Below are positions 56,450-61,564 of a DNA stretch of 64,000 nt, in pieces. How positions within the stretch are numbered: the first letter of the stretch is position 1; every line of letters begins with the position of its first letter. The position numbers and the translations under genes are program-made. The stretch comes from Oscillatoria sp. FACHB-1407 (lineage in GTDB: Bacteria; Cyanobacteriota; Cyanobacteriia; Elainellales; Elainellaceae): the NCBI RefSeq assembly GCF_014697545.1, contig NZ_JACJSA010000001.1, positions 620,001 through 684,000 on the forward strand, in the 5' to 3' direction. The notes under the pieces are model-generated. The model saw only the letters and a list, made by a program, of their open reading frames with translations, searched no databases and was not told the origin of the DNA.

Positions 56450-57003
56450 GAGTATCTCAGTTAATTAACCTCCCAGGAGTTTAATCCTTTGGTGTGCGAT
56501 CGCACGTCTTCATATTTCTGATCGAGTGCCCCACTTACTAAACCTGAATCACTATAGCTAGGGGTGGTGTCACAGGAGATCAGGTGTAATCTGTAGCAGC
56601 AATTTCTAGATCTGATATAGGAACCTACGTCCACCTTTTCCAAAGGATTAAGGGGAATCTTGTCCTGCAATGCGATTGTAGCTCCGACAATGCGATTGCA
56701 GCTCCGACAATGCCATTGCAGCTCCGACAATGCCATTGCAGCTTCGACAATGCGATTGCAGCTCCGACAATGCCATTGCAGCTCTTACAATACGATTGCA
56801 GCTCCGACAATGCCATTGCAGTCATTATATTAAGAGCTGATTTATAAGCAGAGCTTTCGTTCTCCCTAAATTTCCCTTCAAAAGAGGGACTTCAGCTTCC
56901 ATCAATTAAATAGAACAGCTATATATCAACAAAGACTGACATTACCTGTTAGTGGTTTTTCTCGCTGGGCACATTAAAGAAGTAATTTTTTAGAGGTCAG
57001 TAC
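56450..57003. other. 554-bp intergenic region with 20-bp tandem array
   Basis: Holds the array at 56668-56821; the flanks show no gene. Minus-strand frames across the array are repeat artefacts because the 20-bp unit shifts through all three frames. Confidence 0.7.
56668..56821 (+). repeat. 20-bp tandem repeat array, 7.7 units
   Basis: Units CAATGCSATTGCAGCTCCGA (S is G or C) start at 56668 and every 20 bases to 56808, with few substitutions. Units with CAATGCCATTG contain a perfect odd palindrome. The regular 20-bp pitch (about two helical turns) would place identical sites on one DNA face, as in iterons or protein arrays. Confidence 0.93.
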
Positions 57004-57372
57004 ATGCCTTCCTCAGATGTTAGTAGACGATTGGCTCGTCAAATTATCGATCAGGATATTGATTCTTTGAATGGTCTTAATGCTGTAGGCGAATATACAA
57101 TCGCTCGTCCTGAAGGCTCACCCGCCAACTTAAAAGCGACCTATGCTGCAATGTTAGAACAACGACAAATTGAAGTTGAAAAATTAGCTGTCTATCGGGC
57201 TGCTGTGGATGCGGCTCGACAGGCAGAATGGGAATTTCACAACGCGGTTTTAGCAATGAAAGGAATGGTGCTCGGGCAATTTGGTCCTGATAGTGACCAA
57301 GTGCAAGCCATTGGCTTAAAGAAGAAGTCAAACCGCAAACGCCCAACTCGTCAAAAAGCTCAATCTGCTTAG
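57004..57372 (+). CDS. Hypothetical protein
   Basis: 122 residues. SSDVSRRLARQIIDQDIDSL, then a long helix AMLEQRQIEVEKLAVYRAAV DAARQAEWEFHNAVLAMKG and a basic C-terminus KKKSNRKRPTRQKAQSA that could bind nucleic acid. No named family is recognised. A ribosome site (TTAGAGG) precedes the ATG, and codon usage looks normal, so it is probably real. Next to the RHS island but transcribed towards it. Confidence 0.7.
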   Translation: MPSSDVSRRLARQIIDQDIDSLNGLNAVGEYTIARPEGSPANLKATYAAMLEQRQIEVEKLAVYRAAVDAARQAEWEFHNAVLAMKGMVLGQFGPDSDQVQAIGLKKKSNRKRPTRQKAQSA

Positions 57373-57541: not shown

Positions 57542-57739
57542 CTACACTTATGATGCCTATGGAAACTTGGTGCGCTCCAGTGGGGCGGTTGAAAACAACT
57601 ACTTGTACCGAGGAGAACAGGTTGACCCCAACATTGGAATGCAGTATCTCAGAGCAAGATACTATGACCAAAATACTGGAAGATTTGCTAGCACTGACCC
57701 CTTTGAAGGGTGGCAAGAGCAACCAATGTCAAGGCATCG
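57542..57739 (+). repeat. 198-bp inverted repeat, left arm (RHS core)
   Basis: Matches the reverse complement of 60452-60649 at 196 of 198 positions by eye (two changes, at about 57689 and 57692). It encodes the C-terminal RHS core YTYDAYGNLVRSSGAVENNY through PMSRHR. Both arms begin at the same base of the core, and each is preceded by an in-frame stop. Confidence 0.95.
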
Positions 57740-58400
57740 TTACGTTTATGGAAATGATAATCCTCTGACGTACAGCGACCCAAGTGGTTTATTTGGCTTA
57801 GCTGAACTAACTGCTACCGCAAAAACTTTGGCAGAGCTTGGGGGAGCAATGTTTGCTGTTCAGTATACAGCTGTTCAAGTTATTCGAACACTTGCAAAAG
57901 AAGAAATTGAATGGACTGGTAAACAGTTTTCGGCAAGTGTGAGTGCAGGTACCAGATTCCCAGCAGGTACATCGTTAGGAGGTATATATACTATTGCCGA
58001 TTCTTCATGGTATCCCAAAGCAAGTGGTGGATATGAAAGGTATGTTGGTGGAGAGTGGTTTACGATGTTAGGGGGAGCTGGTGTGGCTTTGAGACCTGAA
58101 ATACTGGGAGGGTTAGGGGGATCTTTCTTTATAGGTGATGCTACCCTCCAATCTCCTATGATTTTAGGGGCGGGACCAGAAACACTATCCGGAGGTACAG
58201 TTTCTATAGGTGCTGCAATTGGTTTAGCAATAGGTGGCAGTTATACCTTGTTTCTTCAAATGGGTTACGCTTCTGGTAATTTTAGCTGGCTTCCCACGAT
58301 AGGAACAGGGATTGGAGCAAGTCTTGATGCCTTAGTTGGAATCTCAATACCTACAAAAATAGGAAGATATGAGTATACATCAACTCCTCTACCTTCCTGA
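57567..58400 (+). CDS. Orphan RHS C-terminal tip 1 (fragment)
   Basis: The open frame begins at about 57537, just after a TAG; the TTG at 57567 is only a formal start. Residues 1-75 are the RHS-associated core (YLYRGEQVDPNIGMQYLRAR, YYDQNTGRFASTDPFEGWQE, YGNDNPLTYSDPSG). After DPSG comes a unique C-terminal domain of about 200 residues, Gly-rich with alternating hydrophobic strands (GGAGVALRPEILGGLGGSFF, SIGAAIGLAIGGSYTLFLQM). In RHS proteins this variable tip is normally a toxin. Here the rest of the RHS shell is missing, so it is an orphan cassette. A membrane protein follows 77 bp later as candidate immunity protein. Toxin family not recognised. Confidence 0.85.
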   Translation: MVRSSGAVENNYLYRGEQVDPNIGMQYLRARYYDQNTGRFASTDPFEGWQEQPMSRHRYVYGNDNPLTYSDPSGLFGLAELTATAKTLAELGGAMFAVQYTAVQVIRTLAKEEIEWTGKQFSASVSAGTRFPAGTSLGGIYTIADSSWYPKASGGYERYVGGEWFTMLGGAGVALRPEILGGLGGSFFIGDATLQSPMILGAGPETLSGGTVSIGAAIGLAIGGSYTLFLQMGYASGNFSWLPTIGTGIGASLDALVGISIPTKIGRYEYTSTPLPS

Positions 58401-58477
58401 TTTAGAGCTTGTTTTCTAAGATTCTCGCTTTTTGATTCCTAAGTACAAAACATAATTATTTTTGGCAAAAATCAACC

Positions 58478-58996
58478 ATGCATTTATCAGATCAGCAAAG
58501 CCGACGGCTGATTAGCACACTTATTTTAGTAATGCTTATAGCATTTATATTTGGTCGTAAGAGTGAAATTCTTACAATCACACTTGTAGGTTTAGCCTTT
58601 CTTTTTATAAATAAGCCTAATTTTCAAAGGCTTGTCCAAGAGCCAATTCTAGAATCTCAAAAGAAAAAAATAGTACAAAGATTGAACACTACTTTTGTTA
58701 TCAGTGTTTTGCTTTATGTATCAAGTCCTTTAACAGTAGGAGTTTTTGAGCTAATAACTAGTTTGCGGCCTTCCTTCGCAACAGGAACTTATGAATATAA
58801 CGACTTAGTATTTGTTCAGACACTTCATAGCATACAGTTTTCTTTATGGTTACTTCAGTTATATTGGTTGTGGTTAAGCAGACAAGGAAAGTTCCTGTTT
58901 AAGTTGCTTAAAAATGTTTGGATTACTAGATTTTTCTGGACATTGTCAGTTTTTATAGATGTTATTTGGTCCTTCTATCATTTCTCAAACAAATGA
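58478..58996 (+). CDS. Multi-pass membrane protein, candidate immunity protein of tip 1
   Basis: 172 residues with about four or five hydrophobic segments: LISTLILVMLIAFIFG, ILTITLVGLAFLFI, TTFVISVLLYVSSPLTVGVF, SLWLLQLYWLWL, FFWTLSVFIDVIWSFYHF. AT-rich and unlike the flanking genes in base composition. No family recognised. It directly follows the RHS tip on the same strand, the normal position of an immunity gene. A membrane location suggests the tip acts at or through the membrane. This assignment is inference. Confidence 0.75.
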   Translation: MHLSDQQSRRLISTLILVMLIAFIFGRKSEILTITLVGLAFLFINKPNFQRLVQEPILESQKKKIVQRLNTTFVISVLLYVSSPLTVGVFELITSLRPSFATGTYEYNDLVFVQTLHSIQFSLWLLQLYWLWLSRQGKFLFKLLKNVWITRFFWTLSVFIDVIWSFYHFSNK

Positions 58997-59175
58997 CTAC
59001 TGTGGTCGTTTGTCCAGATGCATCCGTTTCACTCAGCAATTTGGCTGTTGGGACCATAAGTTTAATAGGTGGTATGACTGAGTGCATCCGTCTCGCTCAG
59101 CTTATTGCGATCGCGTCATAGATAAAAGTCGGTTGTATTTACCTTAAAAAAACATGTCTTTGATTTTATCTCTCA
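58997..59175. repeat. Junction between the two RHS halves, with 19-bp direct repeat
   Basis: TGCATCCGTTTCACTCAGC (59020-59038) is repeated as TGCATCCGTCTCGCTCAGC (59083-59101), two mismatches, 63 bp apart. It lies at the centre of the mirror-image structure, between the two convergent membrane-protein genes. Confidence 0.8.
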
Positions 59176-59757
59176 TTAATGAATTTCCTCGGAGTCTACT
59201 AGTGATCTGTCCTTTATATAGAAAAGATCTATGAAGTTTTTAATTTGTAGTGATATAAAACTTGAGTAAGCAGGAACAAAAAAACAAATAGGAGCTAGCT
59301 GAGATAGTTGAGTTAGAAGTAATGATTGATTACTTTTTAGAGTAAGAATCTGAAATACTTTTAGTAAGTTTACTAGAACAATCATTGCCAAGCCTGGAAT
59401 AAGAATTGAACACATAGAGAGATTTGATATTCGTAATCCACCGGTACGTATAACTTGATCATCGACATACTCAAAATAGCTCCAATCACCCATAAGCATG
59501 TAAAAGGTTTCACTTGAAATGGAGCCATCAAAGTTATATTTGACAAGAACATGAGAGTACTTTTCAGGACGACGCTGTGAAAGTGGTGTATATTCTCTTT
59601 TATTGAATAGCTGAGATGATGATGTACTGACGTTATATCTTGATCGGAGAATTATACGAACAATTACACCAACCATTAATGCTATTAGCAGCTGTACAGT
59701 AACTAATACCAGTATTATTTGCAGATAGCGACAAGGATTAACAAAATATTGAGACAT
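59176..59757 (-). CDS. Membrane protein, candidate immunity protein of tip 2
   Basis: 193 residues with an N-terminal helix (LQIILVLVTVQLLIALMVGVIVRIIL), a middle soluble part (SHVLVKYNFDGSISSETFYM) and two C-terminal hydrophobic segments (MCSILIPGLAMIVLVNLLKV; LAPICFFVPAYSSFISLQI). Not similar to the 172-residue protein of the other half. It is encoded downstream of RHS tip 2 (60-bp gap) on the same strand, again the immunity position. Confidence 0.75.
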   Translation of the reverse strand: MSQYFVNPCRYLQIILVLVTVQLLIALMVGVIVRIILRSRYNVSTSSSQLFNKREYTPLSQRRPEKYSHVLVKYNFDGSISSETFYMLMGDWSYFEYVDDQVIRTGGLRISNLSMCSILIPGLAMIVLVNLLKVFQILTLKSNQSLLLTQLSQLAPICFFVPAYSSFISLQIKNFIDLFYIKDRSLVDSEEIH

Positions 59758-59817
59758 GGTCTTACCTATTTGAATACCTCAATTGAATGGCTTTTTCGGA
59801 AATCATCACGATACTAT

Positions 59818-60624
59818 CTAAAAACTTGTACTGGCGAGTATAGAAATACCAGTAGAAATTCCTCCTCCATACTCATATCCCACAGATTCCCCATCTACAG
59901 AAAAACCTCTTGCGATTCCTCCGCCAGCTATACCAAATAGAGTGATGCCACCTTCTAATTCTGGTAATCCTGGAAGACTAATCCCAACACCACCTGATGC
60001 AAATACTCCTGTGAGATCATTTAAACTTGCAGGACCTACCAACGAGCGAGAAATAGCTTTCACAGATCCTCTTGTAGAGGATGCAAAAAAACCTACTCCG
60101 TAATCTGCTCCGATTATCAGCCATGACCCCTGTAAGTTACGATTGGTTGATCTTAACCTCAATACACTGATTGATGCCCCAGGACCAAAGTTAGGATCGA
60201 AGCCCAACAAACCTCCAGGAAGACCAAATGAGTTTGTTGTCAAAGTTCCTTCCCAATCAGTAAGGGAGTTCTGAAAATTTCTCCTAATTATATTAAGTCC
60301 TAATCCAACTGCTACAGCACCAACAGTAATTGCTGTAAACTCCAAAACTTTTTGTACTTCGAGTCCGCCTAAAAGACCGGGTAAGGAAAGATCAGCACTT
60401 CTTCCACTTGGATCAATATATTTAATCGGATTATCATTCCCGTACATATACCGATGCCTTGACATTGGTTGCTCTTGCCACCCTTCAAAGGGGTCAGTAC
60501 TGGCAAATCTTCCAGTATTTTGGTCATAGTATCTTGCTCTGAGATACTGCATTCCAATGTTGGGGTCAACCTGTTCTCCTCGGTACAAGTAGTTGTTTTC
60601 AACCGCCCCACTGGAGCGCACCAA
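59818..60624 (-). CDS. Orphan RHS C-terminal tip 2 (fragment)
   Basis: 268 residues from a formal TTG start; the frame begins at about 60658 after a TAA. The first 75 residues are almost identical to tip 1 (same inverted-repeat core), changing to YMYGNDNPIKYIDPSGRSAD. The following 190 residues differ from tip 1 but share a Gly-rich, hydrophobic style (GLNIIRRNFQNSLTDWEGTL, SWLIIGADYGVGFFASST, GGITLFGIAGGGIARGFSVD). As for tip 1, the RHS shell is absent. Probably another polymorphic toxin-type tip; no known toxin motif is seen. Confidence 0.85.
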   Translation of the reverse strand: MVRSSGAVENNYLYRGEQVDPNIGMQYLRARYYDQNTGRFASTDPFEGWQEQPMSRHRYMYGNDNPIKYIDPSGRSADLSLPGLLGGLEVQKVLEFTAITVGAVAVGLGLNIIRRNFQNSLTDWEGTLTTNSFGLPGGLLGFDPNFGPGASISVLRLRSTNRNLQGSWLIIGADYGVGFFASSTRGSVKAISRSLVGPASLNDLTGVFASGGVGISLPGLPELEGGITLFGIAGGGIARGFSVDGESVGYEYGGGISTGISILASTSF

Positions 60625-60649
60625 GTTTCCATAGGCATCATAAGTGTAG
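60452..60649 (-). repeat. 198-bp inverted repeat, right arm (RHS core)
   Basis: Reverse complement of 57542-57739 with two mismatches. The recombinase gene starts 35 bp outside this arm. Confidence 0.95.
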
Positions 60650-60683
60650 CTATGGTGAATTTAGTTATTGAGAACCAGACACT

Positions 60684-61564
60684 ATGCAAACAACCGAATC
60701 AATGTCATTTATGCCTTCAGCTTTAGCCGAGGTACAAACCAACGAAGAATTGATTGAGCTGTGGCTTTACGGCAAAAGCCCTCACACGGTTAATGCTTAT
60801 CTGAGAGATATCAAAATTTTTTTACCTCTATTGGAGATAAGCCCCTTCAATCTGTGACACTGAATAACCTTCAAACCTTTGCCAAAACCCTGATCAAACA
60901 GGGATATTCTCCTGCAACACAGAAACGGCGCATCAATACCATTAAATCTCTATTAGGGTATGGCTATGCTCTGGGGGTACTCTCTGTAAACGTTGGTAAA
61001 TTACTCAAACCACCCAAAGTCAAAAATACATTAGCCGAACGTATCCTGAGCGAAACGCAGATTCATTCCATGATGGCTCTTACCCCCAACGAGCGGGATC
61101 GGCTTTTGTTACGGTTGATTTATGCCACAGGTGCGCGAGTTTCTGAAATCAGTTCCCTCTGTTGGCGAGATGTTCAGTCCGCTGGGCAAGGGCAAGGACA
61201 AGTGACCTTGTTTGGCAAAGGTAACAAAACTCGCATCATTATTTTTAGCCAGGAAACCTGGCAACAGCTTCAACATCTCCGAGGAGAGGCATCACTAGAT
61301 GAACCTGTTTTCAAAGGCTATCGGGGCAAAGCACTGAGTAGACACCAAATTCAACGAATTGTCAGAGAAGCCGCCAAACGAGCTGGAATTGAAGGAGCCG
61401 TTTCTCCGCACTGGTTGCGTCATGCCCATGCGTCTCATGCGATCGAACGAGGTACCCCCATTGCATTAGTACAAGCTACATTGGGTCACGCCAGCACTAC
61501 CACAACTGGAATGTATTTACATGTGCGCCCGAAAGCATCCAGTGCCTTGTATCTGTCGGTATAA
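60684..61564 (+). CDS. Tyrosine recombinase (XerC/D type) split by a -1 frameshift at T TTT TTA
   Basis: The N-terminal frame, ATG 60684 to TGA 60857 (57 residues), contains the start of the core-binding domain (ELIELWLYGKSPHTVNAYLR). The continuation is in the -1 frame, open through 60824 to TAA 61564 (SIGDKPLQSVTLNNLQTFAK, then catalytic domain). Catalytic residues are Arg in TGARVSEISSLCWRD, Lys in GKGNKTRIIIF, HxxR in SPHWLRHAHASH, His in TLGHAST and Tyr in TGMYLHVRP: a complete set. The frames meet at 60818-60824, where zero-frame codons TTT TTA form T TTT TTA. A -1 slip gives 293 residues, normal for Xer proteins. GAGAGA nine bases upstream resembles a stimulatory Shine-Dalgarno. Either programmed frameshifting or a one-T deletion. 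Confidence 0.85.

Follow-up and report, generated by a model that had tools for sequence, protein, structure and literature searches.

Why would a cyanobacterium keep two C-terminal 'tips' of a rearrangement hotspot (RHS) polymorphic toxin in mirror-image arrangement, with a tyrosine recombinase at their side? The question is posed by an island at positions 57542-60649 of a 64,000-nucleotide stretch of the Oscillatoria sp. FACHB-1407 genome (contig NZ_JACJSA010000001.1), the whole of which we refer to as the window. Our answer, to which we attach a probability of roughly 0.6, is that the island represents two modules severed from a shufflon-like system, one in which an Xer-type recombinase would switch the tip of a giant secreted RHS protein.

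Anatomy of the island

The elements of the island, in window coordinates, are as follows:

57542-57739, plus strand: left inverted-repeat arm, forming the start of RHS core 1; 196/198 identity with the reverse complement of 60452-60649
57542-57556, plus strand: candidate site 1, 6-bp core CTACAC (57542-57547) and right arm TTATGATGC, with left arm GTAGCATAC directly upstream
57549-57791, plus strand: RHS-associated core 1 (TIGR03696), without a shell; in-frame stop just upstream
57789-58400, plus strand: tip 1, about 203 amino acids (aa), Gly-rich and beta-rich; same family as the tip of the shell on contig C52 (see below)
58478-58996, plus strand: candidate immunity protein 1 (172 aa), with two or more predicted transmembrane segments
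59176-59757, minus strand: candidate immunity protein 2 (193 aa), with two or more predicted transmembrane segments
59818-60402, minus strand: tip 2, about 194 aa; by profile, in the broad family of tip 1
60403-60642, minus strand: RHS-associated core 2 (TIGR03696), without a shell; in-frame stop just upstream
60452-60649, minus strand: right inverted-repeat arm, partner of 57542-57739
60635-60649, minus strand: candidate site 2, CTACAC TTATGATGC; with its left arm, CCATAG-CTACAC-TTATGATGCCTATGG (60629-60655)
60684-61564, plus strand: Xer-type tyrosine recombinase, divergent from tip 2 and adjoining the right-hand core; 57% identity with an intact copy on contig C50

Reading inwards from either end, we see that the two halves begin at the same base of the RHS core: identity starts at CTACAC (57542 on the plus strand, 60649 on the minus strand) and breaks off sharply upstream of both. 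The two cores score 66.3 and 61.2 bits against a TIGR03696 cut-off of 32.5 bits, neither is joined to a 'shell' (our term for the constant N-terminal part of an RHS gene), and both end in the conserved DPSG, beyond which the tips diverge. In these respects, and in the two small proteins with predicted transmembrane segments and the recombinase at their side, our analysis bears out the first-pass annotation of the window, which had described the 198-bp inverted repeats with their common start base, the orphan cores behind in-frame stops, two small membrane proteins and an adjacent tyrosine recombinase. The recombinase has a catalytic domain (PF00589, E 1.7e-32) with the R, K, H-x-x-R, H and Y residues all in place; its nearest NCBIfam models are of the XerC/XerD type, not integron integrases.

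A short sequence at the start of each core

In the 8.1 Mb genome (66 contigs) the 15-mer CTAYACTTATGAYGC occurs four times, exactly at the four RHS cores (two in the window, one on C50 and one on C52), and its reversed control not at all; a chance origin of the shared core boundary is thereby excluded. The 15-mer stands at core starts only, such that the modules have a site at one end. When aligned, the cores take the form of a variable left arm, a 6-bp core and TTATGAYGC, the 6-bp core reading CTACAC in the window pair and on C52, CTATAC on C50 and CTCCCG in all five copies of an array in Leptolyngbya boryana, described below. Among these five L. boryana cores the 15-bp block (the 6-bp core plus TTATGATGC) is the longest invariant run, the next longest being 6 bp; all five copies agree in each of the four codons it spans, as against agreement in 4/32 other conserved codons (p 0.0012). 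These 15 bp are coding sequence as well, specifying the residues with which the RHS core opens (YTYDAYG or SRYDAFG).

The right half-site is found in 10 of 11 sites, the left half CATAG only in window site 2 and on C50. Relatives of the recombinase that have no RHS gene beside them carry 11-6-11 palindromes just upstream of the gene start, several of the form CATAA-N6-TTATG (e.g. ACGCAACATAA TCGGCG TTATGTTGCGT), with 10 or 11 of the 11 bases complementary at 10 of 31 such loci; at window site 2 and on C50 the sequence is CCATAG-N6-TTATG, of the same form but with the left arm weakened. The site pattern with left arm CCATAG was absent from 338 other genomes of the phylum. Where the first-pass annotation had proposed exchange through recombination in the conserved core, the data favour a short site for the recombinase, placed exactly where that core begins.

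Complete arrays and the missing shell

A full array sits on a 554-kb plasmid of L. boryana, with the recombinase beside it. It opens with a giant immunoglobulin (Ig)/RHS protein (coding sequence 308997-330137) and a convergent immunity candidate; there follow four spare tips—A and B on the strand of the shell, C and D on the opposite one—with small genes adjoining them, and then the divergent recombinase, a PpiC isomerase, a C39-peptidase ATP-binding cassette transporter and an HlyD-type protein (type I secretion genes). Tip C scores above the cut-off of the NucA/NucB DNase family; the gene next to it has a likeness, below cut-off, to SUKH-1 immunity proteins. A congener of L. boryana (genome G527) has the same layout with two tips. 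Both Leptolyngbya loci contain the shell gene; that of the window does not.

Four junctions between recombinase and RHS sequence, independent in appearance, are now in hand (window, C50, L. boryana and G527), and in each of them an orphan core divergently abuts the recombinase, the link suggested from the window recurring at three other loci. On C50 no more than about 60 bp separates the orphan core from its recombinase, which is divergent and intact and has 57.5% identity with that of L. boryana. The first-pass annotation had suggested searching the genome for a full-length RHS gene with the same core, the lack of which would have spoken against its reading, and a compatible one is there: the genome's sole RHS shell lies on C52 (8552-12538; 1328 aa, open at the contig end), its core sharing 85% DNA identity with the window cores.

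A giant Ig-repeat protein at the end of C50 (L009:5793-14261) and the C52 shell, likewise at a contig end (L008:8552-12538), align consecutively on the 4591-aa G527 shell, the former up to residue 3263 and the latter from residue 3450. Because they match consecutive parts of this one protein, the two are probably halves of a single gene from which some 0.6 kb is missing. A serine/threonine kinase with two predicted transmembrane segments (C52, L008:6853-8274) is convergent with the tip of the shell, at the position expected of an immunity gene.

The orientation of the modules sets these loci apart. Among the matches listed, neighbouring RHS pairs in 17 other cyanobacterial loci are on the same strand in 34 of 34 cases, and opposed pairs are confined to the recombinase loci with multiple cores, three in number (locus-level Fisher p 9e-4). 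The shell-joined tip-immunity module of L. boryana (L070:17278-18893) matches the recombinase-proximal module of G527 (L083:16987-15376) in inverted form, with tips 78% and immunity candidates 66% identical and direct matches on both flanks; judged by alignment, and subject to a caveat on the G527 assembly considered below, this is the arrangement that an inversion would leave.

A model for tip switching

In the intact form that we see in L. boryana, the order is one shell gene, a set of spare tip-immunity modules pointing either way, and the divergent Xer-type recombinase. The latter would bind and exchange strands at the 15-bp sequence at the very start of the RHS core; recombination of opposed sites would invert the intervening DNA, so that the reading frame of the shell would continue into another tip, and the variability of the left arm would favour inversion over deletion. 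We put at a little above even odds the fuller claim that some cyanobacteria have a machine dedicated to site-specific switching of the tip of a giant RHS toxin (one probably exported by type I secretion), with a half-site merged into the codons that open the RHS core and programmed inversion changing the tip within a clone. The opposed pair of sites in the window could allow 57542-60649 to invert, but since the locus has no shell and its recombinase is frameshifted, the window modules are probably a silent, stranded store; of the two roles that the first-pass annotation had offered, a store of tip-immunity modules is supported, an active invertible cassette at this very locus is not.

Weighing the alternatives

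Several observations count against this model. In addition to the lack of a shell at the window locus, the frame of the window recombinase is split at a T7 run (60817-60823) into 60684-60857 and 60854-61564, affecting its N-terminal part, and support for a single origin of the RHS-linked recombinases is weak (70/27). In L. boryana, the left arms are without the CATA half-site, tip C has additional shell sequence upstream, as homologous displacement would leave, and no inversion is directly seen, four assemblies—which may all stem from one isolate—being identical across the locus. In G527, the recombinase-proximal site is damaged; moreover, the two cores there have a perfect inverted repeat of 99 bp in common and, at the same point, the copy in the shell contains a 38-bp duplication resembling an unmerged assembly overlap, on account of which the orientation is uncertain and may have been chosen by the assembler. 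We have for this reason dropped the comparison of L. boryana with G527 from a proof of inversion to weaker evidence.

Some of these points would be accommodated if the modules were ordinary orphan RHS tips, swapped, as happens in Salmonella, through homologous recombination within the conserved core, with the recombinase a passenger and the sharp boundary marking the edge of conserved coding sequence. Such exchange is documented for orphan rhs tips (PMC3967940); the repeats (198 bp in the window, 99 bp in G527) are of sufficient length, a longer shell fragment is retained at L. boryana tip C, and the 196/198 identity within the modules requires gene conversion or recent duplication, which a site-specific crossover alone does not give. 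What makes us think this explanation unlikely is that 6 of 7 orphans in the recombinase loci of this genome and L. boryana start at one 15-bp block, conserved at silent positions, the 6-bp core being kept even where non-shell sequence adjoins; that opposed orientation is limited to recombinase loci; and that the recombinase abuts the site in four loci. In an integron, a divergent tyrosine recombinase stands beside its site with the modules directed away from it, a plan that our loci share. On an integron-like or mobile-element route the recombinase would insert and excise circular tip-immunity modules at its own gene-side site, any inversion being incidental; relatives of the recombinase are indeed frequent on cyanobacterial plasmids, many with a palindromic site adjoining the gene, and the remoteness of the window modules from any shell means that modules or whole arrays can move. 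Unlike in an integron, however, the far module ends are without a site, both orientations are present and the site is toxin coding sequence, and with no truncated shell flanking the recombinase and XerC/XerD as the nearest profiles we find this route distinctly improbable.

Integron membership in the strict sense was rejected, there being no module-end sites and the modules being opposed; insertion of a recombinase element into an RHS gene, splitting it, was dropped as no truncated shell was found. A dead relic, severed from its shell and decaying with no current role, would fit the frameshift, the absent shell and a number of promoter-like sites not above chance (seven found, 10.8 expected), but both tips and both immunity open reading frames are intact as reading frames, the repeats are still 99% identical and the homopolymer frameshift may be a sequencing error; we give this very little credence, and it is in any case compatible with tip switching at intact loci elsewhere. 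We retain a stranded piece of a shufflon-like array as our preferred description of the island.

Tips and candidate immunity proteins

The first-pass annotation had assigned a different C-terminal domain to each core. The tips do differ, but not simply as different domains: by profile they form a family with the tip of the C52 shell, to which tip 1 is 27% identical (E 7e-6), the similarity of tip 1 to tip 2 taken alone being weak, and we regard them, from these alignments, as probably divergent relatives. A profile seeded by all three finds three more RHS-type tips in other cyanobacteria. Of these, the G374 tip continues an RHS core of like type; the G482 tip (L103:1459-2121) overlaps the terminal part of an RHS repeat frame and has no core, as though this had been deleted. 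A search of plasmid records for the tips found none.

Genes adjoining the members of this family, in the window and in other genomes, encode products with predicted transmembrane segments, consistent with a membrane or periplasmic target for the tips; family searches gave no match for candidate immunity proteins 1 and 2 of the window. Of the two kinds of search suggested for the tips in the first-pass annotation, profiles found relatives and structure did not. A model built from three sequences reached a predicted local distance difference test score (pLDDT) of 33 and was not used; a six-sequence model of a tip relative (pLDDT 73, predicted template-modelling score 0.70) has N-terminal helices and eight main strands, with no fold match at E 0.001 in the PDB or among viral models; family searches, too, gave the tips no match that points to a mechanism, and we accordingly claim no toxic mechanism for the family.

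Relation to known systems

The closest parallel is the R64 shufflon (pilV, sfx, Rci), which likewise has alternative C-terminal segments in both orientations with a tyrosine recombinase near, as in the window, L. boryana and G527. It also has a short asymmetric site at each segment start: in the sfx sites core and right arm are conserved and the left arm is variable, an asymmetry thought to restrict the enzyme to inversion (PMC11852207). The systems differ in that the protein to be switched would here be a polymorphic toxin with immunity genes, where that of R64 is a pilus adhesin; in a core of 6 bp as against 7 bp; in that inversion is here a prediction; and in the recombinase, which is Xer-like by profile, whereas Rci is classed in the IntP2 subgroup (PMC8138268).

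The enterobacterial orphan rhs-CT/rhsI modules, too, consist of a spare tip and immunity gene without a shell, exchangeable with the main gene (PMC3967940), but those are in tandem and use homologous recombination, whereas ours are opposed, have one fixed start site and lie beside a recombinase. Polyimmunity loci near XerC/D genes resemble our loci in having an Xer-type recombinase adjoining polymorphic toxin genes; they are, however, arrays of immunity genes, and the parts of that account available to us describe neither site nor inversion (PMC3482391). A search of the open literature, its coverage leaving out subscription journals and most preprints, returned no report in which a shufflon or DNA inversion acts on a polymorphic toxin.

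Exchange of polymorphic-toxin tips is usually credited to rare homologous recombination. Were our model true, a dedicated recombinase and site would make it programmed and possibly frequent, and the range of shufflons would widen beyond pilus adhesins to take in antibacterial weapons. Any clone switching its tips must carry all the immunities together, which the stored immunity genes fit. L. boryana, being culturable, with complete genomes and the full system, makes the idea directly testable.

Recombinase relatives and minor features

Homologues of the recombinase at 25 GTDB loci, in 8 further cyanobacterial genomes and on 4 other plasmids have no RHS core near them, and viral contigs yielded only three distant recombinases. 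The 11-6-11 palindromes of the RHS-free relatives occur in Bacteroidota, Rhodothermota, Chloroflexota and cyanobacteria (L024, L025, L034, L077, L081 and others); in L024 and L025 a second, weaker recombinase match lies directly upstream. The Oscillatoria genome holds a third copy of its own on contig C11 (L060:7010-7831), a pseudogene that shares 94% identity with the C50 copy but is interrupted by three in-frame stops and has other sequence in place of its start.

Between the two halves of the island there is, as the first-pass annotation had it, a 19-bp direct repeat (TGCATCCGTYTCRCTCAGC; 59018-59037 and 59082-59101). Having no further copy in the window or in the loci of other genomes, it carries no evidential weight and stays unexplained. 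An Rfam search of the island gave no match. To the left of the island, an open reading frame of 122 aa (57004-57372) has as its sole match a weak one to phrog_16364 (a phage family of unknown function; E 0.018), and at 56668-56821 a 20-bp unit (CAATGCGATTGCAGCTCCGA-like) is present seven times in tandem.

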